Below are positions 1 through 22,944 of a stretch of 64,000 bases of DNA, in pieces (within the stretch, counting starts at the first letter, position 1; the number at the start of each line of letters is the position of its first letter). Source of the stretch: Fibrobacter sp. (GTDB lineage Bacteria; Fibrobacterota; Fibrobacteria; Fibrobacterales; Fibrobacteraceae); contig JAKSIK010000004.1 of the NCBI GenBank assembly GCA_024398835.1, forward strand, positions 62,001 to 126,000, in the 5' to 3' direction. Below the pieces are notes generated by a model. That model searched no databases. It saw nothing but the letters and a program-made list of their open reading frames with translations, and had not been told where the DNA came from. A program made the position numbers and the translations under genes.

Positions 1-525
1 GCACGTTACTATCAGAGTATGTGCGATTTGGACGCTCTCGGCAAGGGTGTAGACTACGACGAACTTCGTGAACAGTACATTTTGTTCATCTGTCCGACGG
101 ATATTTTTGGCAGGGGGAAGGCAATTTATCGGTTTGAGAATCGTGAGACATCGGACCCGAATATTTTGATGGGCGACCTAACCTACAAAAATTACTATAT
201 ATTTAAAAAGTACGGTGAAATCGAGGATAAATCCACCCGCGAGTACATGCAGTATTTTGCCACGCAGAAGCACGAATCCGAAAAGTTGAAGCGGATTCAG
301 GAACTGGTGGAGAAGTACCGCAAGGACCCGATTACAAGGAAGGCTTACATGACTCTTGAACAGGAATTGAACATTCGGTACAAGAAAGGCGTAAAGGAAG
401 GTCGTGCAGAAGGAGCGGACTTGAAAAATCGGCAGCTTGCCAAGGGTTTCCGTGATGACGGATTTCCTTTAGAGGCGATTGCCAAGCAAACGGGCCTCAC
501 CAAGGAAGAAATCCTCGCGCTGTAA
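1..525 (+). CDS. Rpn-family PD-(D/E)XK nuclease / putative transposase, 3' part
   Basis: The frame is open to the left window edge (ARYYQSMCDL...) and ends at TAA 523-525, so only the last 174 codons are present. It aligns along its length with the complete paralogue at 22150-22944: ARYYQ, the EQY-I-F-CP-DIFG segment, the YFATQK/YFATDK segment and the C-terminus AKQTGLTKEEILAL. The Rpn (PDDEXK_2) family comprises recombination-promoting nucleases related to transposases of the PD-(D/E)XK fold. The catalytic D...ExQ part of this copy lies outside the window, so I cannot say whether it is intact. It points inward, towards the pilin/adhesin cluster, mirroring the copy on the other side. Function is from family resemblance; the truncation is only a window effect. 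Confidence 0.75.
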   Translation, partial: ARYYQSMCDLDALGKGVDYDELREQYILFICPTDIFGRGKAIYRFENRETSDPNILMGDLTYKNYYIFKKYGEIEDKSTREYMQYFATQKHESEKLKRIQELVEKYRKDPITRKAYMTLEQELNIRYKKGVKEGRAEGADLKNRQLAKGFRDDGFPLEAIAKQTGLTKEEILAL

Positions 526-529
526 GCGC

Positions 530-905
530 CCCGCCCTCGCGTCATCTATTAAGCCACCTTTCGGGGTGGCATTTTTCATACAAGAGATCGCCACAGGGCT
601 CAAGCCCTTCGCGATGACATAGGGCGGGTTTTGCTTTGGATTCGCGACACTCGGCTTGCACGTCATTGCACTACGTGCCATGACCGCTTCAGTTGTCAAA
701 TGCAATCCCGTAAACGGTCTTGCGCTTGACAACCTTGCACGTCATTGCGAACGTAGTGAAGCAATCCAAGACAGTTCTTCTTGGATCGCCACAGCAAGCG
801 AGAGGATTGCTTCACCCCTGCGGGGTTCGCAATGACGTTTTTCATCAGGCAACCTGCGGGTTGCTTTTTAATACGAGAAAGGCTCCCCGCTTCATCAGCA
901 GAGAG
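530..905. repeat. Left arm of a large inverted repeat
   Basis: This gene-free stretch is the reverse complement of 21565-22150 with a few indels. Bases 659-771 are identical, reverse-complemented, to 21859-21971 (113 of 113 by eye). A second exact block of about 58 bases lies around 811-868 and matches 21610-21667. It is built of GTCATTGCGAAC...GAAGCAATCC-type palindromic units common in intergenic repeats of many bacteria. No convincing gene is present. Confidence 0.85.
549..577 (+). terminator. Rho-independent terminator after the left Rpn gene
   Basis: GCCACC (553-558) pairs with GGTGGC (565-570), followed by ATTTTT. It lies 25-50 bases after the TAA of the nuclease gene. Confidence 0.7.
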
Positions 906-910
906 CCTTG
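877..910 (-). terminator. Terminator of the left giant pseudopilin gene
   Basis: On the minus strand AAGGCTC (909-903) pairs with GAGCCTT (885-879) and is followed by TCTCGTATT. It lies about 25 bases after the stop of the giant gene. The mirror hairpin ends the right giant gene at 21565-21595. Confidence 0.6.
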
Positions 911-934
911 GTCGAAATTTAAGTGGTTAGGGGG

Positions 935-3900
935 TTACCAACCATGCTTACAATGAAGTGTTCCTCCGGTAACCGTAATCGTTTTACCCGAAGTACAGCT
1001 AACCCCTGTATCTTGGATGTTTGAAAGAGATTGCCAATCAAAACTCGTCCATTTCTCGGAACCATTTACAAATATTTTCTTTCCGCCTCCATTGGCGCCA
1101 CAAATAAGATTATTGCTATTGGAACAACTGAGAACATATGATTGTCCAACTTCAAAATCGTATGTGTTACCTCCAGTGAACGTTACCGTAATCGCTCCAC
1201 CGCCGCCACCGCCAGCAGAACTGCTGGATACCGCAGCGCTGCTGGAGCTTGTGGAACCACCGCCACCTGCGCAGGGGTTAGAAGCTGTAGACGTTTGAAC
1301 ATATGCCCAGCCAGCACTTATTTCAAGATACCACCCTCCATCAACCTTCGTTGCGGCATTATTCAAATGGTTCATACATCCCGTAGCATTGCCCCAACAT
1401 GGCTGAGTAGAAGATTGAGATTGACCATTTACCTTCCACGACCCATTAACCGACAATGTAGTTGCATCAGTAATGAACATACATCCGTAGAAGGAAGTTT
1501 GATTGACGCCACCAAGTTTGATATTGTCACATCCACTTGCGCAGAATTCCGTGCAACGGCACCCTTCTGCACTACTGCTAGAAGCGGCAGAGCTGCTGGA
1601 GACTGCAGAACTACTAGAAGACTTGGCAGAGCTGGAGCTTACGGCCACGGTAAGGGTTGCCTTACAGCTAGTCTCCGCACCATTCAGCCACACCACATAT
1701 TCACCAGCGGTATTGACATTCATTGTCCTGTCGCCATCGCTAACGCCGCTCGTAGGCCCTTCAACGGTGGTTCCATCCCGCTTAATCATATAAGAACACT
1801 TGCCGTTCTTACAGTTGTTCAGCTTATACCTGAACGTGGTGCTGTTCCCAGAGTTGATTGTGGAATTATCCAGACGACAATTGGTCATAGACGGCTGGTT
1901 CACCGTAATGCTTGCCGTGCAACGCTGTTCACCCGCAATTTTCATGGAGTAGGTTCCATTCTCCGTGAGGTAGAAGGTATTACTGCTCCAATCGTTGTTG
2001 TTGTAATTAGAACTGAAGGTTCCCGACTGAACAGTCGTTCCACCGGGGCTTAGGATTTCCCAGGACATGCCACTTTCAGCGATGATCTTCGCCTTGAACT
2101 GGTCTTGTTCACCATAGGTTCGCGTACTCTGCCCGAATTGACAATACGTTGCCTGAGGCTGCTGCTTGTCAATCGTTTTGGAGCATGCCGCCGAAGCATC
2201 TTCTGAAAGGAGATGCAAGGTGTAGGTTCCGTAGCCCGTCACCTGCGGAGAGATGTTGTTGCCAAAGGTTCCATTCTTGACCGTAACACCATCCTTCTTC
2301 AGATACCAATTACAAACATTGTTGTTGCAGTTGGTCATGTCGGCACGGAACGTGGTAGTTCCGGAAGCACCGAGAGTGGAGTTATCCACACGGCAGTTGC
2401 TGGCCTGCATGGCGTTCATGCTGGGTGTTGCCGTACAGGAAGCCTCGGAGGAACCATTGATATACACCGTATAAGCACCAGCCTCACGCATGGTGAAGTA
2501 AACCTGCGTTTCCTGGCCAGAATTGCCATTGGTGGTTCCGGTGGTTGCATTGTTACCAGAAGGATACTTGACGACATAAGAGCAGCCCAAGCAAGTCGTC
2601 TTGAACTTGTAGCCACCATTATCACCCCAGTTGTAGCTGGAATTTACAAAGCCCAAGCATGTGGTGGTGATGCCGCTAGAGCTACTTACGCTGGAACTGC
2701 TTGCCACACTGGAGCTGCTTACGCTGGAACTGCTTGCAACGCTAGAACTGCTTGCCACGCTGGAGCTGCTTGCAACACTGGAGCTGCTTGCCACAGAAGA
2801 GGAGCTGGCAGCCGTCGGCAACTTACAATCAGGAGCTGTAACATTTACGCTGGAGCCATAATTGCTTCCGCTATACGTCTGAATGTAATAGCCACCGTCA
2901 ATTGCTGCCGGGTAACCGTTACAGCATGTTTGCGAATAGCCGTTATATTCCTTTCCATTGACCTTATATTTGCCACTACCATTGAGAACAATGTTACCCG
3001 TCACAAAGTAGCATCTACCATCAAATGCAAAACTATTCGGCGTAGTAACCACATTTTCACAGCCACTTGGCGGGCTACAAGCACCGGCTTCCTTCACCTC
3101 GAATTGAGCAGATGTACAACCATCAAATGGTGTGGTAGCTGGGCTAGTAGAAACGATTTCGAACCAGTAGTACCCAGGATCAAGTGCATTACCAGAACCG
3201 TTGGCGGCATCAGAACCTGTGGCACCGTTGGTTACGTTTCCAGAACCTGTATAAACATCCGTTCCGGCCTCTTGCAAGGTAATCTTATAGGGGCACCCTG
3301 TGGACGGGCAGTTCGCAATGGAGTATGAGAACTGCGGAATTCCTTGATTTCCCATCACAGAAGTCTTGGACAGGCCACCGCACCTAGCCTCAATGCTATT
3401 GAGGGTGTAGGAATTCGTCGGGCACTCAAATTCTACGCCTTCCAAGGTAGTCATTTTTACTTCAAATGTGTACGGAGTTCCGGTATGAGGAGCTGCATAC
3501 GGATTGTCCGCGAAGTCGAAACTGAAGGTGGCGTTTTTCCCGGATTCCGTATAAGTGCATCCGCCGGTTTCGCAATCGTAGTTCTTGCTTGTGACATAAG
3601 AACTGCTTTCCTTAACATCGAAGGACTTCACCTGGGTATAGTTCGTCACATCAACAGAGAACTTCCATTTTCCAGAAACAGCATCATAAGTCAAGTTTTC
3701 GGAACAGGTAAGTGTCACCACATTGGGGCAATAGGAATACACCGCCTTTACGGTGATACTTGCAGTTCCCACAGCCCGGATGGTAACACCATATACGGAT
3801 TGAGGGTCAAATCCATCGGCATCGAGCAGGGATTCGACATCAATGTCAATGGTTCCAGTCGCCGAAGTCTCATAGGATTTACTGTAAAAGATTGGGCCAT

Positions 3901-6900
3901 ACTCATCACGCTGGCTTAGCAGGTAAATCTCCACACCAGAAGCATTGGGGTTTTCAATCTCCACCTTCAGCGTAGCCTCACGCATATTCACATAGACGCC
4001 CGCACCCAGGGTAAAGCTTTCGCTGGTACCATTGCTAATCGTGGTGATACCGCTACTGCCCATGAAATCCGTATTCTGCTTACAGTAAGAGAGTTCGCCT
4101 ACCCAGAAGCTACCGCAATGGGCTCGTTCCGTTTCGGCTAGCAGCATATCTACGTCGCTCAAGTTGTAGCAGTTACCGACACCCGCCTTTGCGGTCTTAT
4201 CTTCGCCAGCAGAAGAGCCATGAAGTCCTTTTTCGCTGAATTGATAATAGCCACTGTAGCATTCGCCGTAAGATGTACTTGTTCCACAATTGCCATCAGA
4301 GCCTTTATAGTAGTAATGAGGCGCGCAATTCTTAGCATCAAACCAGCTGGAAAGACCAACCCAGGGTGTCACAGACGAATCCTTCGGAACAACGCCACCT
4401 GCATAGGCAGCCTTGAAAGAACAGTTCACCGTGGGGTAAGTATCCCAGCATTCACTTCCATAGTCCTCGCTCTTCCAGCCAATATCATAGAGTTTGAAGT
4501 TCGGGTCTGCCAAACGGAAACCAACATACTGCCCTGAGCTGGAAAAGCCTTCGCTGAAACTGAAGGAAGTGTTGTACGCTTCAGAGGCTCCATAGCGACT
4601 TGTATAGACGTTTACATTTATCGCCGTTTCGCTAATGACGACATCTGCCTCTACAACAGTCGTTGTAGAAATCGAGAGTTTAGAGCCACCAGCAGTTTCA
4701 ACATTTCTGATTTTGCAGAGAGTTTCATTTTGGTCACAGAGTCTAACAGCCAAATCGCCACTATTGTCAGCAAACAGGCTCATAAACAGGTATTCTGTTC
4801 CGTCTTCATTTGAATGCAGGATAAATCCAGAATTCTTGACAGTTGTCGGAATGCTGGAATTGGCTCCTGCAGCCACTTTAGGAACTTGCACCACGGTTTT
4901 CAAGGTTCCCTTATAGCCCGCTTCTGCCGTGCTCATCACGATAGTGCCGAGTTTGTTGTTTTTGTCGGGCTTGGCCGCAACATAACCATCTTCATAGGCA
5001 ATGTTTGAAGTGTTCGTCGCCACCCATTTTTCGCCATTTTCGCCAATGCAGTATTTTTCTGTGCAACTGTTGGAAGCATCGGATAGACCTGTCTTGAATT
5101 CGTCAAAGAAGCAATGCTTGTCGGTCTCGTTAAAGTGGGCAATTACAAGGTTGTCATCGGCAGTAATTGTGAATTCGGTGAAGACATCCCCAGAACTTGT
5201 CGTTACGGGGCAATTCAAGCCGGTACATTTCCAGTAGTTGAATTCTGTGGGTCTTGTTCCAGCGAACTTCAATCGGACCTTTTCACCATTGTACACATGC
5301 ATGGAGCAATATTCTGATGTCGTAGAAACATCGCTGCCGAATGTGCAAGTTTCAGATGTTCCAACGCGGGAATCTGCGGAGGAATTCGTCACTTCGGCCA
5401 CAATTGAGAAACCGGTAAGATTTTCACCCGAGAAACCAAAGCGGAAAGGCATGGATTTAGCCTTAGCGCTAGCAGGAAGTTTATAGGTTCCTCCAACGAC
5501 AAGGCTCGTTTGCTCAATCTTCTTTTCTGGGATAATGACAATACAGCCTTCGCCACCATTCTGTGAAAGGGCGATATCATCGGCAACGCCGCAAGACCAG
5601 CTATTGTTGATGGAAACCGTATTGCAATTCGGGTCGGCTTTCACCCATGGGCTAGATGACGGGCAATCGGGCCAGGCATTCAAATCCGCAGGACAACCGG
5701 AGTTATTTTCACAGTATGTCTGCAATTCGTCTGTAGAAACATCTTCACGTTCAATCGTCACGCTGGAAGCAATTGTAAGAACAATGGTGCTGGGGAAGTT
5801 TATGATATAACCTTCACCCGCCGCCAAGGAGAACATCGCGGTTCCATTCCCTGCATTGACCGTGCTCACTGAGAATAGCGTAATCACAGAATTGTTTTCA
5901 TCCGCTGCAATATTGAATGTGCAGTTGGTTCCCGAGCATGACGCATCTCCCTGAGGAGTGTATGTCCATCCAGCAATATCGGCGGGCTTTGTCACATTCA
6001 AGGCAATTGGAGTTGAATGGGGAGGAATGTTGACTTGAACATCATATAGGCTTGATGCTCCCATTTCAACATTGGACTCTGTAAAGTTAACATAGGGGGA
6101 ATTTCCAGTTTCACCAGTAGCAACAACATAGAACGGAACCTGCTTTCCGCTGTATGTATAGGTACAGGAGTATCGTCCACGGGTGAGTTTGTCATCGCCA
6201 CCTGCAGCGTTGTACATTACTCCGCTTGTACGCAAAAGTGACGGACCAGAGCACTGGACATTTCCTGAAGCTTTGTTGATATTCAAACCATTCAGGCCGA
6301 TGACATTGTAATAATCGCTTAATTGGCCAACCGGGTCAGTGGTTATGTAAATCACACGGGGAACCACAATGAAATCCTGAGCCAAGTCTGCAGCACTGCC
6401 ATCCGGCAAATTTTCATCAGTCTTGTAACTTGTTTCGAGGCTTACGGAAATGGTCGGCGCATTAGAAACATAATATCTATCATATCCGCCCAAGACAATT
6501 TCCTGGACCAATTCACCACCGGATCCTTCTCCGGCACTACCAGTACCGCCACCGGCACCACACGCACTCAAGCTGCCGTCATTGTCACAGATGATGGAAG
6601 ATTTCGCCAAATCATCAAGCAAATCCTGGTCCATATCCAAAACGGAACCGCCCTGAATTTTTCCAATACCTCCCTTATCACAATCAGCTACTGGCTGATA
6701 AATAGTACCCTTCAATTTAATGCCATTAGAGTTGGAGATTTTACCCTTTGTATAAATGAAGTAATGGTTTGCAGTTCCACCGATATTGCTTGCACCGTCC
6801 ATCAGGTATAAGAAAACCTTTCCATCGTCGCTAGTAGCAGGCAAACCATTTTGACAACTAATAGAGCCATCTTTGATAATAATGAATTTTCCATTTAATG

Positions 6901-8980
6901 TTCCAGAAGGACAAGCGTCATCACCTGTTCCACCGCTCACCCTCACAACGAGGTATCCATTGTACAAACTATCTACTTTTAGGCCATCATCAGCTATATT
7001 GTGAGCATAACAATTGTTTAACTGACTAACCAAGCTCTTACTCCAAGACTTGATACCTGCTGCACAACCATAATTTGCGTATTTTTCGAAATTCTGGTAG
7101 CCTGTGCTCAAGGGGTCTCTCACCTTAAATTTGGAACCATTGCAACCATTTTCTGTTGGCTCCCACAATTTGTTACAATCTTCCACCACATGCGTTCCGC
7201 ATTCAAATGGAGGCTCTGATGGTAAATTGCCAATAACAGTGCCGTTAGACTTAAACCAGGAGGGCACTGCGCAAGATGGACGGTAAGTTCCACCCGATTT
7301 GCAATATGGCGAAGCTGTCGGAGTACCATTGACGTAATGATAATAGTTCGTCGTTCCCTTCAAGTCGTTGTAAAGCTGTCCTCCCACTTTATACACGCCA
7401 ATTGGTGTTGGAGAAGTAAATTTTGATGCAATTTGACCAGCATCCGGTTTGAACTTGTTGTAGTTTCCATCGTATGCACCCGAATATGACAACTTGATTT
7501 GTTGTTCGTTATCCGCAGCATTGGTACTAGCCGTATAGTATTTCCAGTTAGACAACGGATAGTTTTCCACAAATTCAACATCTGTCACGCCGGGTTCCAG
7601 GTAATACACATAGTAGGCATTTGCACCAGGGCTTGATACAGAAGGGTAAGGATAATAGGTTTGACCACCCCAGTTCTGCCATCCCTTGGTGTAATAGGAG
7701 TAGTATGACCCGCCGAGCCAATCTTCCCAATGAGGCACTCCCCAGGTTCCGCAGATGTTATAATTTGAGGAGGCAGTAAACCAGTTGTCTCCACCGCCAT
7801 CGCCAACCCTGATAGTCCATTCATCATCAGAGGATATCTTGCTTGGACAGTAATTCTTGCTGTTTGATTTTTCGACAAACGCCTTTGTATTCCGCAAGTT
7901 GGCATAATCAGAATAGGGGTGCCCGCCAGCTACGTAGACCATAGCATCAGAAGCGGACCCTAAAATAATTTTGCTGTAATTGGTTCTATTGTCGCTAAAG
8001 TCCTGATAAGAAATGTTTCCTCCACCAGGCATCCAAACGTTGCCAACAACTTCCATGGATGCATTCGTTCCACCAGAGCGAACACGCCCTGTTTCGGACG
8101 TACAAAGGTTCCCACCCACCTTAACATAGTAGCTTCCACCACTCTGGTTCGTTTTAAGGAGTCCATTTATGGTGAGGTTTCCCTGGAAATCCAGAGGACC
8201 GGTGCTTGATTGTTGAACCGTTCCATCTAAGACTACATCCCCCGTAGCAGTGATTCTTGAATTGTTCACATTTCCATGAACATATAAATCCTGAGCATGT
8301 ATACCATTGTTTTCCATACCCATGTCACCGCCAACGCAAGCCAACTGTCCCACATTTACATTACTACCTGAAAGTGTTGCGTTCCCTGTGACCACGAAAT
8401 TTCCTGAAATGTCTTGAGGGTTTCCGCTCCAGTTTCCATTCACAATGGCTGAACTCATGGTAACACCAGCACTATTAAATGAGCCTGCATAATAGGCGTA
8501 ATCAAAATTGACATGGGCATTAGCCTCAATTTGAGGGACTTGAACCCGATACAAGCCATCTACATTGAAAATACCGACCAAACTATAGCGAGTATTATTT
8601 TTGGCCTTTCCAGAAGAGAGCAATTTCAACTTGTATGTGGAACTTTCTGTATTGACACCTACAAGCCATACATCAAATTCCTGCCCTTCTTTCGTCAATT
8701 CCTTCAACTGAGAATTCAGTTTGATTGGTTTGTTGCCGCCATCAATGTACTGTTTGATTAACGAGCCCACATCGTTTGCATGGTATGTCATCCATGTGCG
8801 AGAATTTTCAAGGCCCGCCATAGCGCTCTGGTAGGCCGTATTTTGCAGCATTCGAGATCCGCTTGAGCCATTGGACGAAGAAAGCCACTTGAATGTGGCC
8901 GTAGCGGCAATGGTGGCCACCAACATGAAGAGTAGCACCGCGATGAGTGAGACACCCTTTTTGTATTGCAATCCTTGCAT
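935..8980 (-). CDS. Giant PilX-type pseudopilin-adhesin, left copy (2681 aa)
   Basis: The start is the ATG at 8980, 10 bases after the PilW-like stop, with CGGAGG at 8990-8985. The N-terminus has a prepilin-type signal (KKG|VSLIAVLLFML, hydrophobic to about residue 30) as in PilX minor pilins, with Ala instead of Glu at mature position 5. After it come: a pilin-like head (to about 165); a beta-helix-like stretch of G-N/TGN turns (about 175-310); a long Cys-rich region; a ConA/LamG-like segment (about 1290-1500) starting HCFFDEF; Ig-like units; a small Cys-rich module (CENVV...) followed by a poly-Ser linker (about 2055-2100); four Ig-like repeats of about 80 aa; then a second such module and a terminal module separated by two more Ser linkers. 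It is paralogous to 12195-21506. I infer a surface or pilus-tip adhesin on a type IV pilus-like machine. Substrate is unknown; carbohydrate binding is a guess. Confidence 0.85.
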   Translation of the reverse strand: MQGLQYKKGVSLIAVLLFMLVATIAATATFKWLSSSNGSSGSRMLQNTAYQSAMAGLENSRTWMTYHANDVGSLIKQYIDGGNKPIKLNSQLKELTKEGQEFDVWLVGVNTESSTYKLKLLSSGKAKNNTRYSLVGIFNVDGLYRVQVPQIEANAHVNFDYAYYAGSFNSAGVTMSSAIVNGNWSGNPQDISGNFVVTGNATLSGSNVNVGQLACVGGDMGMENNGIHAQDLYVHGNVNNSRITATGDVVLDGTVQQSSTGPLDFQGNLTINGLLKTNQSGGSYYVKVGGNLCTSETGRVRSGGTNASMEVVGNVWMPGGGNISYQDFSDNRTNYSKIILGSASDAMVYVAGGHPYSDYANLRNTKAFVEKSNSKNYCPSKISSDDEWTIRVGDGGGDNWFTASSNYNICGTWGVPHWEDWLGGSYYSYYTKGWQNWGGQTYYPYPSVSSPGANAYYVYYLEPGVTDVEFVENYPLSNWKYYTASTNAADNEQQIKLSYSGAYDGNYNKFKPDAGQIASKFTSPTPIGVYKVGGQLYNDLKGTTNYYHYVNGTPTASPYCKSGGTYRPSCAVPSWFKSNGTVIGNLPSEPPFECGTHVVEDCNKLWEPTENGCNGSKFKVRDPLSTGYQNFEKYANYGCAAGIKSWSKSLVSQLNNCYAHNIADDGLKVDSLYNGYLVVRVSGGTGDDACPSGTLNGKFIIIKDGSISCQNGLPATSDDGKVFLYLMDGASNIGGTANHYFIYTKGKISNSNGIKLKGTIYQPVADCDKGGIGKIQGGSVLDMDQDLLDDLAKSSIICDNDGSLSACGAGGGTGSAGEGSGGELVQEIVLGGYDRYYVSNAPTISVSLETSYKTDENLPDGSAADLAQDFIVVPRVIYITTDPVGQLSDYYNVIGLNGLNINKASGNVQCSGPSLLRTSGVMYNAAGGDDKLTRGRYSCTYTYSGKQVPFYVVATGETGNSPYVNFTESNVEMGASSLYDVQVNIPPHSTPIALNVTKPADIAGWTYTPQGDASCSGTNCTFNIAADENNSVITLFSVSTVNAGNGTAMFSLAAGEGYIINFPSTIVLTIASSVTIEREDVSTDELQTYCENNSGCPADLNAWPDCPSSSPWVKADPNCNTVSINNSWSCGVADDIALSQNGGEGCIVIIPEKKIEQTSLVVGGTYKLPASAKAKSMPFRFGFSGENLTGFSIVAEVTNSSADSRVGTSETCTFGSDVSTTSEYCSMHVYNGEKVRLKFAGTRPTEFNYWKCTGLNCPVTTSSGDVFTEFTITADDNLVIAHFNETDKHCFFDEFKTGLSDASNSCTEKYCIGENGEKWVATNTSNIAYEDGYVAAKPDKNNKLGTIVMSTAEAGYKGTLKTVVQVPKVAAGANSSIPTTVKNSGFILHSNEDGTEYLFMSLFADNSGDLAVRLCDQNETLCKIRNVETAGGSKLSISTTTVVEADVVISETAINVNVYTSRYGASEAYNTSFSFSEGFSSSGQYVGFRLADPNFKLYDIGWKSEDYGSECWDTYPTVNCSFKAAYAGGVVPKDSSVTPWVGLSSWFDAKNCAPHYYYKGSDGNCGTSTSYGECYSGYYQFSEKGLHGSSAGEDKTAKAGVGNCYNLSDVDMLLAETERAHCGSFWVGELSYCKQNTDFMGSSGITTISNGTSESFTLGAGVYVNMREATLKVEIENPNASGVEIYLLSQRDEYGPIFYSKSYETSATGTIDIDVESLLDADGFDPQSVYGVTIRAVGTASITVKAVYSYCPNVVTLTCSENLTYDAVSGKWKFSVDVTNYTQVKSFDVKESSSYVTSKNYDCETGGCTYTESGKNATFSFDFADNPYAAPHTGTPYTFEVKMTTLEGVEFECPTNSYTLNSIEARCGGLSKTSVMGNQGIPQFSYSIANCPSTGCPYKITLQEAGTDVYTGSGNVTNGATGSDAANGSGNALDPGYYWFEIVSTSPATTPFDGCTSAQFEVKEAGACSPPSGCENVVTTPNSFAFDGRCYFVTGNIVLNGSGKYKVNGKEYNGYSQTCCNGYPAAIDGGYYIQTYSGSNYGSSVNVTAPDCKLPTAASSSSVASSSSVASSSSVASSSSVASSSSVSSSSVASSSSVSSSSGITTTCLGFVNSSYNWGDNGGYKFKTTCLGCSYVVKYPSGNNATTGTTNGNSGQETQVYFTMREAGAYTVYINGSSEASCTATPSMNAMQASNCRVDNSTLGASGTTTFRADMTNCNNNVCNWYLKKDGVTVKNGTFGNNISPQVTGYGTYTLHLLSEDASAACSKTIDKQQPQATYCQFGQSTRTYGEQDQFKAKIIAESGMSWEILSPGGTTVQSGTFSSNYNNNDWSSNTFYLTENGTYSMKIAGEQRCTASITVNQPSMTNCRLDNSTINSGNSTTFRYKLNNCKNGKCSYMIKRDGTTVEGPTSGVSDGDRTMNVNTAGEYVVWLNGAETSCKATLTVAVSSSSAKSSSSSAVSSSSAASSSSAEGCRCTEFCASGCDNIKLGGVNQTSFYGCMFITDATTLSVNGSWKVNGQSQSSTQPCWGNATGCMNHLNNAATKVDGGWYLEISAGWAYVQTSTASNPCAGGGGSTSSSSAAVSSSSAGGGGGGAITVTFTGGNTYDFEVGQSYVLSCSNSNNLICGANGGGKKIFVNGSEKWTSFDWQSLSNIQDTGVSCTSGKTITVTGGTLHCKHGW
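2674..2811 (-). repeat. 18-base tandem repeat encoding (SSSSVA)n linker
   Basis: An imperfect 18-base unit, repeated about seven times, encodes SSSSVA/SSSSVS on the minus strand inside the giant gene. Poly-Ser linkers between modules are typical of Fibrobacter secreted enzymes. Two shorter Ser linkers lie near 1567-1650 and 1195-1270. Confidence 0.85.
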
Positions 8981-8990
8981 AAAACCTCCG

Positions 8991-10399: not shown

Positions 10400-10415
10400 C
10401 GCCCGTATTCTGCGG
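10400..10415 (-). repeat. 16-base inverted repeat shared by the two divergent leaders (left half)
   Basis: CGCCCGTATTCTGCGG here is the exact reverse complement of CCGCAGAATACGGGCG at 10864-10879. Both lie just upstream of the prepilin motif, and in both the codons read PQNTG in the frame of the PilW-like gene. Confidence 0.8.
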
Positions 10416-10638
10416 TCTGTCGCTGTCAAATGTAAACGAGGGCCGACTGAACAGGGAGGTTCGGTCTGCCTGTCCTTGAACTTTGGATGCAATCTGGGCG
10501 TTTTTCATGTACATGTCTAAATCCACCAAAAACACGAAACGCCGAAACAGCGCCTCGCACCCCCTTAATATAACTTTATCTTTACAAAAGCGGTTGCTTT
10601 TATTTTGTTATCTGGTATGGAATTAGGGCGATTTTTGG

Positions 10639-10657
10639 ATATTCCAACTTGGAATAT
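10639..10657. promoter_or_regulatory. Perfect 19-base palindrome, candidate operator
   Basis: ATATTCCAA-C-TTGGAATAT is a perfect inverted repeat around one central base. It is flanked by direct repeats GGAATTAGGG at 10619-10628 and 10663-10672. Its placement between two divergent paralogous operons suggests a binding site for one dimeric regulator controlling both. No bound protein can be named. Confidence 0.6.
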
Positions 10658-10863
10658 AGGGCGGAATTAGGGTAGCGGGAGGGGATTGCCAATTGACGCA
10701 CACCGCTTCTGTTTACAAAAAGTTTACATACTACATTTTTGTTTCCGATTTATTAAAGAAAAAAGACGATTTTCTCACGAAAAAATACGGCTTTTGCGCA
10801 ACTCTATACAGGGCTTAGAAATACACATTTTCAACAATGGCGGGGGTTCTAGCCAACCCATAA

Positions 10864-10879
10864 CCGCAGAATACGGGCG
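10864..10879 (+). repeat. 16-base inverted repeat shared by the two divergent leaders (right half)
   Basis: Exact partner of 10400-10415. Here an in-frame TAA (10861-10863) directly precedes it, so unlike the left copy the frame is closed upstream. Confidence 0.8.
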
Positions 10880-15100: not shown

Positions 15101-18100
15101 TGAATCTGGTGAATTAAATGGCACCGTAGAAAATTTGAAGGAAGTAAAGCTCGTTGTATCAAAAGTTGCCGCAGCAAGTACAACGCCTATTACGGTAAAT
15201 ATCAGCGTGTCTAAAATACCGGCAACAGGATGGACATTAACTCCCACTAGCGATGCATCCCTAACGGTGTTGTCCGAATCCAGCGGAGCAATAGTATATT
15301 CTTATTCAACGCTGCCATCTACCTCTGAAGCAAAAGAAATATCGTTGTTTACTCTTAAAACGGAACCTGGCGCCCAAACAGGTACTGTAAGTTTCATGTT
15401 GCAAAATCCTAGCAACTGCATTATCTCTGCACCTATGTATACATCATTCTCCATTGTTGGATCTTCTACGGTGGAGCGTGCCGAGTTGAGTCAATACTGC
15501 ACAGATTTTCCTGACAACTGCACTGAAGCGGGGGGGGCTACATATGGGGCAGTAAAGGATCATGAGAATTGTGATGCTGTAGGTATTTGGATAACGGTTA
15601 GTGGTGATGCTTGCAGCGCTGAAGAGAACAATAAAAAATGGACTTGTGCAACCGGCATACCTTTATCTCTGGAAGCAATGTCATATGACCATGACTTGTG
15701 CGAAGCGTATATTCCAACAGCCAATAATAGTGTTACTTCAGCAAAGAACGATAGCGTATATACGCTCTATGGCTCTTTAAAGAAACGCATGTATAATCTG
15801 CACTTGTCTTTCTCGGGCTCAAACAATAGTGGGTCAGGCATAAAGGTAAGGTCTAAAACTAATGCGACATCCAGTTTTGAAGATGTGGAAACATGTACTA
15901 CATCAAGTGGCTGTGACTACTCCTTCTATGCAGGCCGTATTGTAGAGATTGAAGCAGTGTCTACAGCTGACGACAAATTCTCTTATTGGACATGCCTTGG
16001 TGGAAAATGCAGTTCCATAAATAGCACATCAACTACAGTTCAGTTGGTTATGACAAGCAACTATGATTACGAGGCAAAATACAACGAAATTGACCCGCAC
16101 TGCTTCTATACGGAATTCGATGATATTAAAGCATTCTGCTCTGGTGTCGACGAAACGGAGTGTATCGACAAATGCGACGGATCTACGCATTGTAATTCTG
16201 GTGGTGGCAAGTATGGCACAACTCCCAACTGGCTAATGGCTTATGCAAACCAAAGCGGCAATAGCTTTATTGCTCCTGAAAAGCTTGGTGGGTATATTTC
16301 CTACAACGGAAACGCCACTTCGGGCAATCAGACAATTCTCCTAAATCGTGTAATAGCCGGCAATAACGGCACAATGACCGCCCGCATTATGTCGGATCAG
16401 TTTAGCTCCACAAAGGCAGGTTCTTTTACAAACAGCGGATTTATCCTACGTTCCAATGTTGATGCTACATCTTATCTCGTCATGAACATCTATGGTAAAG
16501 ATGGCTACGGCACATACGCCCGTATTTGCTACGCAAGTGATCAGAGTGTAGACAATTCCAAATGCATTGAAAAGCAAGTCAGGTCAGGATCCAGTTCTTC
16601 GCCAGCCTTGTCCAACAACATGGAGCCAATCAATGTCACCATCAATCTCAATGCGAGCACGGTTGACGTTGCCCTAAATTTCATGCGTTCTTCACAGCAG
16701 GCAAGCGCCTCATTTGACCTTGCAGAAGATTGGGAATATGGAGATTTGAACGATCTAACCCATAGATATGTGGGTCTAATGCTCACAGACAAGGAATTTA
16801 AGGTCAGCGACATTGGCTGGCATGCTACGGATTTTCCCAACGAGGCATGCTTTGACTATCCTTCCATCTCCTGTTCCTTTGCCGCCAATTACCTTGGCGG
16901 AAAGGTCCCCTTGGATTCTGCGGTAATGCCCTGGGTTGGATTCTCCAGCTGGTATAGCAGCCACGATGATTGCATTTCTTCTGGAATAAAGTATTACTAC
17001 AATGGCTGCGATATGTCCAGCAGTCAGTTTGTTTCCCGCTCATCGAATCTTTCTAGCGCCTGTTCTGAACTTTATTCAGATGGTTGGTATCAAAACGACA
17101 CATTGCCAAACGAAGGCTTGGAATTGAGTGGCGATTATAAGTTTGAATGGACGGGTATGCACGGCATCGCAAGTTCCGATAATAAAGGTCATATTCGCAA
17201 TGCCTTTGTATCCGTGAGCTGTACAGACGCAAGTGTGACTTCTAACAGTGGATGTGGCGAATTCTTCGTGGGCCAGATGACGGAATGTTCCAAGAACGAG
17301 ATGATAGTGTCTTCTGAATATTCCGGTTCTACATCGCAGAGAACAGTGACATTGGATAACGCCATAAATCTTCGTGGTGCAACAATCAACATCGGCATCG
17401 AAAGCCTTGCTGATGGCGAAAACATCGAGGTTGTCTTGGAAGATTCCTATGGTATGCAATCTCCCGCACGCTTGGTGACAAAAACAAACCACGAGCTGGA
17501 TGCTAGCAGTTTTGAAGCGCTTTCCAGCTTCAATCTGGAAGCAGTCAAAAAGGTGCTGTTGACGGGTTCTGCTAGCTATACACTCAATGTGGTGAACAGT
17601 CGCTGCCCCAATGCGGTAAATATCGGTAATTGTCATGCTACTTATGGCGGCAGCCAGTGGACGATTACTTCTAACATCTCGCATGTTGATCATGCCTATA
17701 AATGTCGAGTAAAGCCCAATTCTATGGACATGGCTTCACCGGATTCCCTTGTAGAATGCACAGGCATGAGCTTTAATGTTAGGGATGATGATTTCTATGA
17801 AAGGTTGAACATAAGCTCGGCCGAAGAAATGAATTATAGCTTTACGGTAGAAGTATTTGATGAAGAGAACCCAGGCATAGGAGCGGTACCTGCCGATACA
17901 TGTATTGCGGTTTCAGACTCCTACAAGCATGCCACTGCCACTTGCAGCATCGAAAAAGACATGGTGCTCCAGGGCGATGGCGTTCCCAAACTGACCTATT
18001 CTATTAAGGATTGCCCCGATTACGGCTGTAAATATTCTGTGGAGTTGTACGGAAAAGCTACGAAAACCAATAGTCCTCCGAAAATTCCTCAGGATGGCGT

Positions 18101-21100
18101 GACTGGACAAGAATGGCAACCCGACGTGAATACATCTACTGATGAATTTGCCGTAGGCTCCTACACCTACGAGGTGAAGGCCTGGAACAAGGATTCTTCG
18201 AGAGTTATTGCGGAATGCGCTGAAGATGATGTAAAATTCAATGTCGAAGAAAAGAAGGACATTCAGGGTACTTGCTCCATTAGCGGTTCTTACATCACCG
18301 TCTCCATTGATGGTGCAAACTATGGAGAATCCTCGTCTGTTTCCCTAGCTATGGGTGATGTGTTGGGCAATATTCTCAACTTCTCAACGATTGCCGTCGG
18401 CGCATCTAAAGATACGACGATTGATTTGTCTAGCCGGACAGATTTGACGCCCGGTCAGGCTTATACATTCATGTTACACTTGCGTGATAGCGTTGTCACT
18501 TGCGGTAGCTATACCAAGCCTTATGAAATCGGTTTGACCTGCCCGGCGAACGTGACGGGCCAGAAGGCGGAAGAAGCCTTGACGGTAACCCCGACGGTAT
18601 CTGGCTGCGGCAGCGCTTGTAGTTGGTCGCTGACTGGCGGTAGTGTTTCCCTGAGCGGAACGGATTATAATGGCGGAGCTTTGACACCATTTACAAGTGA
18701 AGGCTCTGATGGAACCACAGTTTCCTATACCATCCAGTTGAGTCGTACGGGTGCCGCTAAAGATACCTCCTGTACCTTTACAGTGCAGTATAAGGAAAAC
18801 ACCAATATCACGGCAACCTGCGCCTGGGATAATGGAACCGGTACTTACTGGCCGGGCCAGAGCAATGTGAAGTTGAATGTCTCCAATATCCGGAATTTGC
18901 CCAGTGACCAGAAGTTTGAGCTGACTTGCGGTGACAGATCTACATCAAGTACCTGCCGTGTGGGCGGTAACTGCGACAACCTCCAATTCAAAGTTCCGAG
19001 CACTGTTGGCAACTATACCTGTATATTGCAGAATAGTTCCGGTGATGTGATGTGCCGCCCGGCTATGGAAATCAAGGCTCCGTTGAATTGCTCCGTGTCG
19101 TCGAACGCTGTTGGCTACGGTGAAACGTTCACATTCTCGGGTTCGACTGCTTCTGGCACGAACTGTTGGAACTGTAGGTGGTCTGATGGCTCTAGTTCGC
19201 ACAGCGTGGGAACCAGCTTCTCTCAGAACATAACATTCAATTATACGACAGAGAGAACGTATACATTCCAGTGTGATTGTAGTGAAATGGATTCTCCGCA
19301 GAAATGCACGCAGACGGTTGTTTCCCATCTTGACCCGCCTACGGTGACTTGCCCGACGACTCACTATACATCTGATCCGGGCCAGAACATTACATTCACT
19401 CCTGCAAGCTTGACAAAAAACTGCGGTATTGGTTGTAACTACACCCTCGTGAAGGATGGAAGCTCTACTCCAAAGGCCTCCAAGACGGACAATTCCTACA
19501 CCTCCGCCTCCGCCATCACCTTCACCGGAGATATGGCTGCCGGCTCTGTGAAGTACACCTTCGATGTGACCAACTCTGCCGGCCACCAGTCTTGCGACTT
19601 CTATGTGGATTACAACAAACCCACGATAGAAAATTGCCCCACATCCGCCATTGATGCAGACCCTGGATCAACAATCACTCTCCCATCAACCCTCACAGTG
19701 GGCAACTGCTCCAGCGGCAACTGCAAGTACTCTATTACAGGTGGAGGCAACACCATTGCAGGGCTCACCACATATTCCAGCTCCGGCACAATATCTTTCA
19801 CTGGAGAATCTGCAGTAGGCGAGAAATCCTATACACTCACAATCAGTAACGGAGGTCCAACCCCCGCGACCTGCAACTTTAAAGTGAACTATAAAGCAGT
19901 AAGTGTATCCGGCTGCTCTCCAGCCTCAAAAAGCGTAGAGCCGGGCGAGTCATTTGATGTGACACCCACCATTAGCCATTGTGGCGGCAATTGCTGGTAT
20001 TCCTTCGATGGTGGCTCCACTCACCACGACTACACCGGAGGCGACATACCCCTATCAACAGACGAGAATGGTTCAACCACGAATTACACGCTCACTTTTG
20101 GCAATAATGTCAGTGGAAATAAAGGATCTTGCGACGTTAGCGTGACATACCTGAAGCCCGAGGTGACCTGCCCGACGACTCCTACGATTTCCGTAGAACC
20201 GGGAGGAAGAGCTTCTTATGACCCAGGAGTATCTAACTGTACTCAGGGTTGTAAATTTACGCTCAGTAAGGCAGGCGCTACACTTCCCGAATCAATAACG
20301 AGTTATACTTACACTGGTGGAAATATATCCTTTGTGGCAGGAGGTAGTGCCGATCCTGACACATATTCATTGATTGTTACAAACAAAGCTGACCAAAGCG
20401 CAACGGAATGCAAATTTGATGTAGGTTATAAAGTGCCGACATTCACATGCCCCACGGTTTCCGGGAGTAAGGCTGTTGGCACAAACATAACCGTTAAACC
20501 GACGGATGTCCGAAATTGTACCAATGGATGCAAGTATTCTATTGAAGCGATAAACGGAACAGGTACTGGTAACACAGGCTTGGAGAGTTATAGTAGTGGT
20601 GCAGATTTAGGCCCTGTGACGGAAAGTTCTGCCGGAACAACCACATACGCATTGCATCTAAAGAATGATGCCGGATATGATGCGGAGAATTGTACTTTTG
20701 ATGTGACTTATGTAGTCGTAACATGTACTGAAATTACGGAAACAATTACTGGTGATAATTACCATCTCCGTATAGCCATGACGGATGGTTGCTATGAAGT
20801 GAATACAGGAAGAGCCTGCAAACATGTTCAAATACAAAATACTGGAAGTACTGGATCGGGTAACTTTACCATAAATGGAGTTACAGTAAATTGTGCTACA
20901 TATTTCGATAATGACATCCCGAAAAAGACGATAATCAAATTTGATGTCCCTGCATCGTGTGAAATAAAAACTGATCAAAGTATATATTTATCTGGTTGCG
21001 AAGACATTTCTCCACGTGTCAATAGTTGTAGTGTAGGAGCGACAATGCTGGCTGCGGATGAAACAACAACATTTAGTGCGACCCTGTCAAATGTTGATAG

Positions 21101-21506
21101 TTGGATTCTAAAGAAGGATGGCGAGCAGGTAGATCAGGGTGGTTCGACATCTTCTATTTCTAAAACAATTACAGGCTTTGGTGAATACAAACTGTATTTG
21201 AATGGCGAAACAACCGCAAAATGCACAAAGACCATTTTAGAAAAACCCGCTGGTGGCGTAACAACGGATTTGTATTGTGAATATTGGATGAGCTCCGATA
21301 ATTGGCCAATTCATAGTTCTGGAACAACCATAGTATGTCATAACAATGGATGGTGCAGCGCACAAAACCTTGAATGTTCAGGGACTTTCAAATATAAAGT
21401 GAATGGAGGATCTGAACAAACATTCAGTGGAGGCTCAATTTCTTGTCAAGATGGTTCAGCAGTTACCATCACAGAAGGGACTGGCAAATGTTATCTCAAA
21501 AACTAA
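12195..21506 (+). CDS. Giant PilX-type pseudopilin-adhesin, right copy (3103 aa)
   Basis: ATG 12195 is preceded by GTAGGAG overlapping the PilW-like stop. The prepilin-type N-terminus is RKKG|VSLIAVLLFML. It follows the left copy to about residue 1900: pilin head; beta-helix-like stretch (about 186-316); Cys-rich region; ConA/LamG-like segment (about 1300-1540, HCFYTEF); then the PWVGFSSW segment. From about 2110 to 2845 it has about eight units of 80-95 aa with the pattern CP...GC-Y/F...C-F-V-Y. Next come a module with homology to the left Ig-like repeats (DETTTFSA...WILKKDG) and a terminal Cys module ending GTGKCYLKN. It lacks the left copy's poly-Ser linkers. I infer a surface or pilus-tip adhesin carrying a different binding tail. 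Base composition becomes clearly AT-richer after about 20.2 kb. Confidence 0.85.
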   Translation: MTNRKKGVSLIAVLLFMLVATIAATATFKWLNSEGRSSADRLMLSEARQSAVAGIETARSWMTYHGNETGALVKQYLGNGKTPILLDSLLSPMTNGQQKFSVMLVGVDISNPTYKLKIASTGTARNGTTFSEEAIMNVNGLYRVAIPTTQSTLDFNYALFSSSVTYNGTVKIESAVINGNWYKNPPITTGDFVVTGNAELSGSSLNIGGTACIAGNLDANNGISSNNLYVKGNVVGTALSVSTTGNVYLDGKITAGSQAVYFGGNLTLADTAITNLGANNFDVEGNLCIEDEGAIQINGTGRDFHVNGNVWIPTPHLPFLSGSGLLSSGNYSRIVLGDTATDKIYVEGARSSNAYAAFRDSKCFVESSSYRKNCPSGFNPEGNFDGWCNNGDSRWECGGVYDQHFYFTENTIAAGEHQACGTMQKNTVWQNTAAYQKGTSSGHMGVFSENWNYWGNGTYCPYDDNITAANDKYYIYYNSPDTVDVEFREYDNTYWKHYEGPYGKSADGNFYVDKENFSSYFKYPTKIGAYYVGGQVFFDMWDTYAPDYRYVNGKPTGSPYCYNPGGSRSNPIYQPKCAISQWFKALGTVNGTLPTTKPFECGESAKAHCDSIWGPPKTGCNGAAYKVDDPIITAYSSFVLKANNLECSKDIHTLTDANVTALNTCYNNTKNSADSTKLYNGFLVVEMYGGKSGGPKNALTGDFIFIYKTKAGDGNQFKIGPSEGNVFMYLEQGSSSLQPANCSGSFKYFIYSLEDIDEINGFDETSCQLKGSVYATAENCKKVQNASGKGLFLKTDKGLIDKLGQAAILCPSESGSCGTVAPSSSEDPSASMTTTITYSGDDTDFIATGSQLSITMESQYKNEETYEDAQEVEPSIVVLPRIIYLNSDAIGKLSDYYTVMPLNGAVANGSGSVTCPEGAPPTSSPFAASDSLNGGFYYCTYTENGLSSSFHIVVSGKMSETPYVNLGGDESGELNGTVENLKEVKLVVSKVAAASTTPITVNISVSKIPATGWTLTPTSDASLTVLSESSGAIVYSYSTLPSTSEAKEISLFTLKTEPGAQTGTVSFMLQNPSNCIISAPMYTSFSIVGSSTVERAELSQYCTDFPDNCTEAGGATYGAVKDHENCDAVGIWITVSGDACSAEENNKKWTCATGIPLSLEAMSYDHDLCEAYIPTANNSVTSAKNDSVYTLYGSLKKRMYNLHLSFSGSNNSGSGIKVRSKTNATSSFEDVETCTTSSGCDYSFYAGRIVEIEAVSTADDKFSYWTCLGGKCSSINSTSTTVQLVMTSNYDYEAKYNEIDPHCFYTEFDDIKAFCSGVDETECIDKCDGSTHCNSGGGKYGTTPNWLMAYANQSGNSFIAPEKLGGYISYNGNATSGNQTILLNRVIAGNNGTMTARIMSDQFSSTKAGSFTNSGFILRSNVDATSYLVMNIYGKDGYGTYARICYASDQSVDNSKCIEKQVRSGSSSSPALSNNMEPINVTINLNASTVDVALNFMRSSQQASASFDLAEDWEYGDLNDLTHRYVGLMLTDKEFKVSDIGWHATDFPNEACFDYPSISCSFAANYLGGKVPLDSAVMPWVGFSSWYSSHDDCISSGIKYYYNGCDMSSSQFVSRSSNLSSACSELYSDGWYQNDTLPNEGLELSGDYKFEWTGMHGIASSDNKGHIRNAFVSVSCTDASVTSNSGCGEFFVGQMTECSKNEMIVSSEYSGSTSQRTVTLDNAINLRGATINIGIESLADGENIEVVLEDSYGMQSPARLVTKTNHELDASSFEALSSFNLEAVKKVLLTGSASYTLNVVNSRCPNAVNIGNCHATYGGSQWTITSNISHVDHAYKCRVKPNSMDMASPDSLVECTGMSFNVRDDDFYERLNISSAEEMNYSFTVEVFDEENPGIGAVPADTCIAVSDSYKHATATCSIEKDMVLQGDGVPKLTYSIKDCPDYGCKYSVELYGKATKTNSPPKIPQDGVTGQEWQPDVNTSTDEFAVGSYTYEVKAWNKDSSRVIAECAEDDVKFNVEEKKDIQGTCSISGSYITVSIDGANYGESSSVSLAMGDVLGNILNFSTIAVGASKDTTIDLSSRTDLTPGQAYTFMLHLRDSVVTCGSYTKPYEIGLTCPANVTGQKAEEALTVTPTVSGCGSACSWSLTGGSVSLSGTDYNGGALTPFTSEGSDGTTVSYTIQLSRTGAAKDTSCTFTVQYKENTNITATCAWDNGTGTYWPGQSNVKLNVSNIRNLPSDQKFELTCGDRSTSSTCRVGGNCDNLQFKVPSTVGNYTCILQNSSGDVMCRPAMEIKAPLNCSVSSNAVGYGETFTFSGSTASGTNCWNCRWSDGSSSHSVGTSFSQNITFNYTTERTYTFQCDCSEMDSPQKCTQTVVSHLDPPTVTCPTTHYTSDPGQNITFTPASLTKNCGIGCNYTLVKDGSSTPKASKTDNSYTSASAITFTGDMAAGSVKYTFDVTNSAGHQSCDFYVDYNKPTIENCPTSAIDADPGSTITLPSTLTVGNCSSGNCKYSITGGGNTIAGLTTYSSSGTISFTGESAVGEKSYTLTISNGGPTPATCNFKVNYKAVSVSGCSPASKSVEPGESFDVTPTISHCGGNCWYSFDGGSTHHDYTGGDIPLSTDENGSTTNYTLTFGNNVSGNKGSCDVSVTYLKPEVTCPTTPTISVEPGGRASYDPGVSNCTQGCKFTLSKAGATLPESITSYTYTGGNISFVAGGSADPDTYSLIVTNKADQSATECKFDVGYKVPTFTCPTVSGSKAVGTNITVKPTDVRNCTNGCKYSIEAINGTGTGNTGLESYSSGADLGPVTESSAGTTTYALHLKNDAGYDAENCTFDVTYVVVTCTEITETITGDNYHLRIAMTDGCYEVNTGRACKHVQIQNTGSTGSGNFTINGVTVNCATYFDNDIPKKTIIKFDVPASCEIKTDQSIYLSGCEDISPRVNSCSVGATMLAADETTTFSATLSNVDSWILKKDGEQVDQGGSTSSISKTITGFGEYKLYLNGETTAKCTKTILEKPAGGVTTDLYCEYWMSSDNWPIHSSGTTIVCHNNGWCSAQNLECSGTFKYKVNGGSEQTFSGGSISCQDGSAVTITEGTGKCYLKN
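18530..20725 (+). repeat. Array of about eight Ig-like protein repeats
   Basis: Successive units begin with (T)CP and contain GC-Y/F in the middle and C-F-V-Y at the end; examples start near 19345, 19635, 19910 and 20165. The repeats are clear at protein level but well diverged in DNA. Codon choice differs from unit to unit (GC-rich near 19500, AT-rich after 20200), which suggests units of different age or origin. Confidence 0.75.
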
Positions 21507-21564
21507 CCGTGTGAGTAGTTTATAAGTCTGGTATTTGTCTAGGCTCATTTTCCATGAACAACCC

Positions 21565-21600
21565 AAGGCTCCCTGCAGAAAAGCGGGGAGCCTTTCTCGT
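21565..21600 (+). terminator. Terminator of the right giant pseudopilin gene
   Basis: AAGGCTCCC (21565-21573) pairs with GGGAGCCTT (21586-21594), followed by TCTCGT. It mirrors the terminator at 877-910. Confidence 0.7.
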
Positions 21601-22149
21601 ATCAAAAAACAACCCGCAGGTTGCCTGATGAAAAACGTCATTGCGAACCCCGCAGGGGTGAAGCAATTCTCTCGCTTACTATAGATTGCCACGGGGCTGC
21701 GCTCCCCTAGGCCATTCTGGGGCAGGACCCCGGAATCCATGCAAAACCCGCCCTACGTCATTCACGGCCATGTCGGAAATTCAAGGCAAAACCCGCCCTA
21801 CGTCATCGCGAAGGGCGCAGCCCTGTGGCGATCCATGCAGAATCGTCATGAAAAATCATCTTGGATTGCTTCACTACGTTCGCAATGACGTGCAAGGTTG
21901 TCAAGCGCAAGACCGTTTACGGGATTGCATTTGACAACTGAAGCGGTCATGGCACGTAGTGCAATGACGTGGGAGTCGAGTGCCGCGAATTCAAAGCAAA
22001 TTCCGCCTCACATCATCGCGAAGGGCGCAGCCCTGTGGCGATCTCCTGTATGAAAAACGCCACCCCGTGGGATGGCTAATGCCCAAACTGCTAGGTCCTT
22101 CGTTTTGTGCCTTCGGCACTTCGCTCAGGATGACACGCGGGCGGGGCGC
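21601..22149. repeat. Right arm of the large inverted repeat
   Basis: Reverse complement of 530-905, with two insertions relative to it (about 21675-21858 and about 22080-22125). Bases 21859-21971 match 659-771 without a mismatch. The insertions carry extra units of the same family (GTCATCGCGAAGGGC, CTTCGGCACTTCGCTCAGGATGAC). No gene is evident in this 550-base stretch. Confidence 0.85.
22050..22078 (-). terminator. Terminator of the right Rpn gene
   Basis: On the minus strand GCCATCC (22076-22070) pairs imperfectly with GGTGGC (22064-22059), followed by GTTTTTC. It is the mirror image of the hairpin at 549-577. Confidence 0.55.
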
Positions 22150-22944
22150 TTACAGTGCGAGGATTTCTTCCTTGGTGAGGCCCGTTTGCTTGGCAATGAG
22201 AGCCGGATCTACGCCTGCATCGCGGAAACCCTTGGCAAGCTGCCGATTGGCCTCGGTACGACCTTCCTCACGACCTTCGTCGCGTTCTTCTGCAAGCATA
22301 TCTTCGAACAGCATGTAGTCGCTCCTTGTTTTAGGGTCCCTGTGATAGAAATCCACCCGACTCTGAATCTCCTGCGTGGCAGCAGTCGTCGCCTTGTCGG
22401 TGGCGAAGTACTTCAGGTAATCGCGAACGGATTCGTCGGTCACCTTATCGTACTTGCTAAAATTACAAAATATTTTATATGTCAGGTCTCCCAAAGTTAA
22501 TGAATGATCATTTTTCTCTCTGTTTTCAAATTCATAAATGGGGCGTTCTTGGCCGAAGATGTCCTCCGGGCAGAGGAAGATGACGTACTGTTCCTTCAGC
22601 TCTGTGTATTTGCTCGAACTCGCCAGTGTCGCCACATCGCAAATCCCTTGATAGTAACGGGCACGAAGCGGAAGTTCCTGAGTATCCACCATCTGCATTT
22701 CGAGGTCGAATACCCTGCCAACCCCATCTTTGCCGTCTTCCTTGACCATGACGTCAAAACGGATGAACTTTTTGCGTGGGTCGGCCTGTTGGCGGGCCTC
22801 ACTAACGACATGAACCTGTTCGATGTCAACCTTCAAAAGCGCCCTGAGGAACGGCTTTGCGATTTCCTCATCCTCAAATACTTTAACAAACATGAAGTTG
22901 TCCCTGATGGTGAGTTCTTCAAGTGATTTATATTTTCTAGTCAT
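22150..22944 (-). CDS. Rpn-family PD-(D/E)XK nuclease / putative transposase
   Basis: 264 aa, complete. N-terminal motif IRDNFMFVKVF is typical of the family. The nuclease core is visible as RFDVMV...VFDLEMQ (Asp, then Glu-x-Gln), followed by the RARYYQ helix. The C-terminal EGREEGRTEANRQLAKGFRDAG...TGLTKEEILAL is the usual charged coil plus small helical tail of these proteins. Known members (RpnA-E of E. coli) are DNA endonucleases that raise recombination. This copy points inward to the pilin/adhesin cluster, mirroring the partial copy at 1-525, and its 3' end lies inside the conserved flanks. There is no transposon end sequence that I can recognise. Confidence 0.85.
   Translation of the reverse strand: MTRKYKSLEELTIRDNFMFVKVFEDEEIAKPFLRALLKVDIEQVHVVSEARQQADPRKKFIRFDVMVKEDGKDGVGRVFDLEMQMVDTQELPLRARYYQGICDVATLASSSKYTELKEQYVIFLCPEDIFGQERPIYEFENREKNDHSLTLGDLTYKIFCNFSKYDKVTDESVRDYLKYFATDKATTAATQEIQSRVDFYHRDPKTRSDYMLFEDMLAEERDEGREEGRTEANRQLAKGFRDAGVDPALIAKQTGLTKEEILAL

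Follow-up and report, generated by a model that had tools for sequence, protein, structure and literature searches.

The window, the whole stretch of 64,000 nucleotides that was analysed, corresponds to positions 62001-126000 of a 137-kb contig of an uncultured gut Fibrobacter. Read outward from a common centre, both sides of the locus contain, in the same order, a gene encoding a PilW-like protein, a gene encoding a giant PilX protein, a shared repeat and an inward-pointing gene of an Rpn-family nuclease (Table 1). The mirrored layout recognised in the initial annotation is real, and the gene order is identical on the two sides. The genes flanking the locus are ordinary and include RecD2 and IlvE on the left and acetolactate-decarboxylase-like and YgiQ-like genes on the right.

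Table 1. Features of the divergent minor-pilin locus, in coordinates of the window.
Feature	Position	Strand	Remarks
Rpn_L, PD-(D/E)XK nuclease family (PF12784), 3' part	1..525	+	Convergent with PilX_L; its longest ORF starts 327 bp upstream of position 1
Outer inverted repeats, left arm	478..892	+	Pieces of 69, 49, 180 and 100 nt, 88-96% identical to the right arm
PilX_L	935..9007	-	2690-aa minor pilin, GspK-like; N-terminal pilin helix, beta-rich body, Ser-rich linkers, exchangeable tail modules
PilX_L tail module m3 (aa 2605-2690)	938..1195	-	Recurs at PilX C-termini in other genomes
PilX_L module m2 (aa 2482-2579)	1271..1564	-	Replaced between the window and G028
PilX_L module m1 (aa 1982-2061)	2825..3064	-	Same family as m2; replaced block, dS 1.13 vs 0.04-0.15 alongside
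PilW_L, PilW-like minor pilin, read as ON	8991..~10535	-	Open from the ATGs (10506-10527) across the repeat and as far as the prepilin motif
PilW_L prepilin motif GFTLMEL	10314-10334	-
Left arm of the 17-bp inverted repeat	10400..10416	-	Read in PilW_L as (R)PQNTG
Central 446-bp segment	10417..10862		Proposed to invert
RBS-like GGTGGA with both ATG start codons (ATG..ATG) of the shared leader	10506..10527	-
Promoter-like TTGTAAAGATAAAGTTATATTAAG	10564..10587	-	Toward PilW_L
19-bp near-palindrome ATATTCCAACTTGGAATAT	10639..10657		Possible regulator site
Right arm of the 17-bp inverted repeat, ACCGCAGAATACGGGCG	10863..10879	+	Overlaps the in-frame TAA 10861-10863 at its first base
PilW_R, headless, read as OFF	~10864..12186	+
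PilW_R prepilin motif GFTLMEL	10909-10929	+
PilX_R	12195..21506	+	3103-aa giant minor pilin, intact, under purifying selection
Outer inverted repeats, right arm	21581..22197	-
Rpn_R (PF12784)	22150..22944	-	Convergent with PilX_R

The features of a type IV minor pilin operon were found on inspection of the translations: the GFTLxE motif can be read directly in both PilW proteins, and the N-terminus of PilX is PilX/GspK-like. The matches of PF07963 and TIGR02532 to PilW_L and of the GspK model to PilX_L are below the curated cut-offs, and PF07963 exceeds its cut-off on the FimU protein of a related genome (G073). The AlphaFold2 (AF2) model of the N-terminal 900 residues of PilX_L (mean pLDDT 75.6) comprises a pilin helix and a beta-rich body. 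It yielded no significant match in the PDB, and weak hits to adhesins of the tapirin type (E 0.24 and 1.3), obtained across the N-terminal and tail-module searches, are no evidence of relationship. In modules m1 and m2, highly variable stretches accompany a common scaffold, C...VNG...DGGYYI, and the modules are found again, at differing places, within the PilX proteins of many genomes; the model of m2 is confident (pLDDT 92.8) and has no PDB match. Pilins of Fibrobacter have been linked to cellulose attachment, in which fibro-slime proteins are implicated too (PMC4668043, PMC4704652). We infer that the PilX product is a ligand- or substrate-binding pilus tip.

The outer inverted repeats consist of pieces of 180 nt (91% identity), 100 nt (96%), 69 nt (96%) and 49 nt (88%), and only partial pieces of them occur elsewhere in the same genome. 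They had been described as nearly identical. Most of the 69-nt piece is formed by the 3' ends of the two Rpn coding sequences. The mirrored, inward-pointing Rpn genes both belong to PF12784 (38 bits for Rpn_R, with the Rpn_L place over the cut-off), and their proteins are 52% identical along the length. Across the genus, Rpn genes lie preferentially at PilX 3' ends: among 56 such ends with enough flanking sequence, a convergent Rpn-family gene lies within 2.5 kb in 23 and a same-strand one in a single case; about 0.5 would be expected at the PF12784 density of the window's own genome, a comparison that is a description and not a strict test, related genomes not being independent and the set of Rpn genes counted being wider than PF12784. 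Several Rpn families occupy the same place behind PilX. Rpn genes are also convergent with single-copy PilX genes and, therefore, do not define the system, contrary to the initial annotation; besides, Rpn proteins have been reported as anti-phage toxin-antitoxin genes (PMC10327210). The overproduction of RpnA-D in E. coli raises RecA-independent recombination, and nuclease activity has been shown (PMC5350276); the Rpn proteins of the window are putative nucleases. These genes may help the cassettes to move or may simply settle there. The 2.1-Mb genome itself contains at least 15 PF12784 genes, some of them adjoining genes of large surface proteins, and none of 14 well-known control genomes possesses any.

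The 446-bp segment in the centre of the locus contains one recognisable promoter, one ribosome-binding site and one start codon, all facing left, and no promoter-like element facing right was found in it. The promoter was assigned by its sequence, similar stretches of which recur upstream of other minor-pilin operons; a generic consensus scan did not call it. A perfect 17-bp inverted repeat encloses the segment; no second repeat of this size with arms 100-2500 bp apart exists in the 64 kb, and the longest inverted repeat obtained in 500 shuffles of the region was 13 bp. The reading frame is the same in both arms. An exact 16-mer of the repeat has no other site in the same genome and, among 80 genomes of the genus, is found only in G028 (Fibrobacter sp. 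Horse_feces18), where it again lies at the leader of the left gene and also at right-type heads that are headless. A dispersed repeat as the source of the 17-mer was ruled out, since the 17-mer is present solely at this locus and in G028; ten matches in IMG/VR contain none of these genes. The arrangement by which invertons are recognised, short inverted repeats around a promoter, is seen here in the 17-bp repeat with the putative promoter inside. This repeat, absent from the initial annotation, matters most at the locus, and not the long flanking repeats and Rpn genes that had been taken as its defining features. The near-palindrome ATATTCCAACTTGGAATAT recurs in several genomes, in some copies at a distance from pilin genes, and is possibly a general regulator site.

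No ATG, GTG or TTG codon occurs in PilW_R between the TAA codon at 10861-10863 and the GFTLMEL motif. Of some 100 PilW and FimU genes compared, none besides PilW_R is without a start codon, and the 58-aa leader is restricted to the left genes of the window and G028. After inversion of positions 10400-10879 in silico, PilW_R becomes an ORF of 480 aa with the left leader in frame, and PilW_L retains a possible GTG start 11 aa before the motif. PilW_R may also start at a non-standard codon, ACG in the window and ATT in G028. A sequencing error as the source of a frameshift in the right leader was ruled out, the frame being the same in G028 and the changes mostly synonymous. As sequenced, only the left operon has a promoter and a start codon and the right one is headless, so that the locus does not contain the two complete variants reported before.

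The comparison with G028, a horse-faecal relative, revealed an uneven pattern of divergence. The leader and the 17-bp repeat are identical in the two genomes; the 45 bp beyond the repeat are about 60% identical, with the frame kept, and the identity then returns to nearly 100%. PilX_L is 99% identical between the genomes except for two blocks, the module at residues 1980-2097 and the tail from residue 2457, which show 36-73% identity. The dS of the replaced module and tail is 1.1-1.3, as compared to 0.04-0.15 beside them, which indicates block replacement rather than point mutation. The right cassette has been replaced as a whole: it differs along its entire length (72% identity for PilW and 61% for PilX) and lies between conserved flanks, with 98.6% identity in the YgiQ flank. 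The dN/dS of PilX_R over the first 300 codons is approximately 0.15, and this purifying selection on an intact gene indicates that PilX_R has been used at some time. Rpn_R is 99.6% identical at the amino acid level, with dS of 0.006 beside 0.25 for the neighbouring YgiQ gene, and has thus moved recently. The centre of the G028 locus carries a further Rpn gene, RpnG (PF04754).

G028 possesses a second right-type headless head, which adjoins the flank at window position 30541, and the start of an Rpn gene at window position 30537 points toward this head; taken together, they suggest a third cassette in G028, missing from the bin. An inversion of 20 kb in G028, considered on account of the 55-bp end shared by contigs C6 and C20, was set aside, since contig C16 runs into another Rpn gene at window position 30537 and this continuation better fits the missing third cassette. 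One contig of 9.8 kb that had been assigned to a Bacteroidales MAG (L139; JAKSMD010000079.1) encodes Fibrobacter-type PilW and PilX and is probably mis-binned. An 88-bp stretch at the 5' end of PilW is identical in PilW_R of the window and in the left-type PilW of this contig, which comes from another horse-faecal sample.

PilW is present in 76 of the 80 genomes of the genus, usually as a single gene and mostly in a FimU-PilV-PilW-PilX operon. In the tree of 68 PilW proteins, PilW_L groups with the left protein of G028 and with G036, and PilW_R groups with the right protein of G028 and with G009, G043 and G027. The comparison of the left and right copies in gene trees, proposed in the initial annotation, places them in two separate old lineages, and the search of other Fibrobacter genomes, also proposed there, found divergent pairs of minor-pilin operons in at least eight of them (G005, G015, G027, G029, G046, G050, G056 and G073). 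In five of these, G015, G029, G050, G056 and G073, each side is a four-gene operon and a tyrosine recombinase gene (PF00589) lies between the divergent operons (L047-L055); their centres may themselves be active inversion systems. A decayed piece of such a recombinase is found in G037. In G029, inverted repeats of 146 bp (90% identity) span both operon starts. G015 and G073 share one conserved and one diverged cassette, as do the window and G028, and they have the same orientation, with no flip seen between them. In G005 and G046, the left cassettes at one chromosomal site belong to different clades. Tandem arrays of two or three PilW-PilX units on one strand, not divergent, were also observed (L097, L100, L058-L059 and L088).

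It seems slightly more probable than otherwise that the locus is a recombining adhesin locus with two pilus-tip adhesin cassettes and a switch that inverts the promoter and start codon. According to this model, the single promoter, ribosome-binding site, start codon and leader of about 40 codons would constitute one movable unit, and recombination at the 17-bp repeats, performed by a putative site-specific enzyme, would invert it. The inversion would fuse the leader in frame with one PilW-PilX operon at a time, left or right, and in the present orientation the left operon would be on and the right one off. Around the switch, the cassettes would evolve by recombination, with right cassettes, PilX modules and tails being swapped with other strains, and the switched product would be a substrate-binding pilus tip. 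Selection on the apparently unexpressed PilX_R matches the prediction of a switch. The opposite orientation was not observed, both genomes with the repeat, the window and G028, having the left operon in the ON configuration.

No recombinase gene is present at the locus in the window or in G028. Tyrosine recombinases of the type found in the centres of related loci are absent from the window genome (72% complete) and from G028, where only XerC/D-like proteins were found. A Piv-type recombinase was rejected as the invertase, since PF01548 (Piv/IS110) is absent from both. G028 encodes an unlinked 219-aa serine recombinase of the resolvase/invertase type (L154), a candidate for an enzyme acting in trans; the genome of the window, 72% complete, yielded no serine recombinase of the invertase type.

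The headless state of the right cassette could have another meaning. The left operon may be the only expression site, with the right cassette and the probable third one of G028 forming a silent archive that is copied into the left by homologous recombination at the conserved PilW 5' region and the outer repeats, without site-specific inversion. This explanation accounts for the lack of a start in all right-type heads, in the window, on contig C20 of G028 and at the separate place in G028 (C6), for the identity of the 88 bp of PilW 5' DNA shared with a left-type gene on the mis-binned contig, and for the replaced blocks of PilX_L with their tenfold higher dS. However, the left operon core is 99% identical to that of G028, so the copying of whole cassettes into the left is not recent, and the modules replaced on the left were not copied from this right cassette. 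A perfect in-frame inverted repeat with a stop codon exactly at this point also fits a switch better, and the archive is considered rather unlikely. Less probable still is an ordinary divergent pair of expressed, paralogous minor-pilin operons that share a regulatory region, with a non-standard start on the right and the 17-bp repeat serving as a conserved regulator site. G005, G027 and G046 do possess divergent pairs in which either side has a normal start codon and a repeat of this kind is absent, and the purifying selection on PilX_R is what an expressed gene would show; but the right gene lacks ATG, GTG and TTG in both the window and G028, the repeat is located within the left reading frame and not upstream of a gene, and nothing resembling a promoter is directed to the right.

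The 88-96% identity of the outer repeats might suggest that the mirrored layout arose by a recent inverted duplication or as an artefact of assembly. This can hardly be the case: left and right fall into separate clades, both of them supported and both including relatives from other genomes, and the sides share only 42% (PilW) and 31% (PilX) of amino acids, which, together with the PilW tree, rules out an in-place inverted duplication. The initial annotation called the genes clear paralogues that have diverged; they are in fact far apart, and the palindrome is not a duplicated block, since its two sides are old separate lineages. An artefact, named there as a finding that would overturn the symmetry, is unlikely, because the locus lies in the interior of one 137-kb contig and the independent assembly of G028 shows the same divergent heads.

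What remains of the earlier interpretation, once the two complete variants and the defining role of the Rpn genes and outer repeats are given up, is the diversification locus itself. It is supported by the exchange of cassettes, PilX modules and tails between close relatives with the flanking genes in place, and divergent pairs recur throughout the genus, some with a recombinase between the operons. A tentative generalisation, possible though somewhat less probable than the switch at this locus, is that a hitherto undescribed class of surface-variation loci exists across Fibrobacter, in which divergent operons of a minor pilin and a giant adhesin surround a central switch inverting the promoter, start codon and leader. 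Its interchangeable cassettes and tail modules would come from an Rpn-marked recombination hotspot, and one of at least two pilus tips would be shown for different plant polymers or partners. Little is understood of how Fibrobacter, key degraders of cellulose, attach, and a genus-wide recombining pilus-tip locus with a switch, if it is confirmed, would provide a genetic handle on the choice of surface.

The ingredients of the model have precedents in the shufflon, Piv, sapA and inverton systems. The combination of a leader and start codon moving between giant minor-pilin operons, cassette exchange and Rpn neighbours is absent from the literature searched, which contained nothing on inversion or minor-pilin variation in Fibrobacter. 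The locus resembles the FimU-PilV-PilW-PilX operons in the gene order of most Fibrobacter examined, the prepilin motif and the PilX/GspK-like N-terminus, but PilX comprises 2000-3200 aa, and FimU and PilV are lacking at the locus in the window and G028. Invertons of gut bacteria contain inverted repeats of 10-40 nt around a promoter near genes of surface structures (PMC11892184). The repeat described here differs in being located inside a reading frame, with a target gene on each side, and, therefore, the start codon and the leader would move too.

In the shufflon of IncI plasmids, inversion by the tyrosine recombinase Rci alters the C-terminus of one gene, PilV (PMC9045228). In both cases, DNA inversion, proposed here, varies the tip adhesin of a type IV pilus, a minor pilin, and a constant part is joined to variable parts at a short site. 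Here, however, the proposed inversion would carry the promoter and start codon from one complete operon to the other, this genome has no recombinase next to the locus, and the C-termini vary between strains by block replacement; in place of an Rci-type enzyme and multiple sites at the 3' end of pilV, the locus has its site at the 5' end of PilW.

Two further systems are closer to the model in the way in which a start is shared. In Moraxella, a constant pilin start is joined by inversion to one of two pilin bodies, and the bodies move; the recombinase Piv belongs to the DEDD/IS110 family. The same joining of a constant start to alternative bodies is proposed here, but it is the leader that would move, and neither the window genome nor G028 encodes an IS110/Piv protein (PF01548). 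Inversion of the Moraxella type 4 pilin by Piv is cited in PMC11208160. The proposed movement of a promoter can also be set beside the sapA locus. In Campylobacter fetus, an invertible segment between divergent surface-protein cassettes contains one promoter, and the other cassettes are silent and promoterless; this segment extends over kilobases, and the homologous 5' regions are long. The sapA products are S-layer proteins and not pilins, and the segment proposed to invert in Fibrobacter is only 446 bp long and bounded by repeats of 17 bp.
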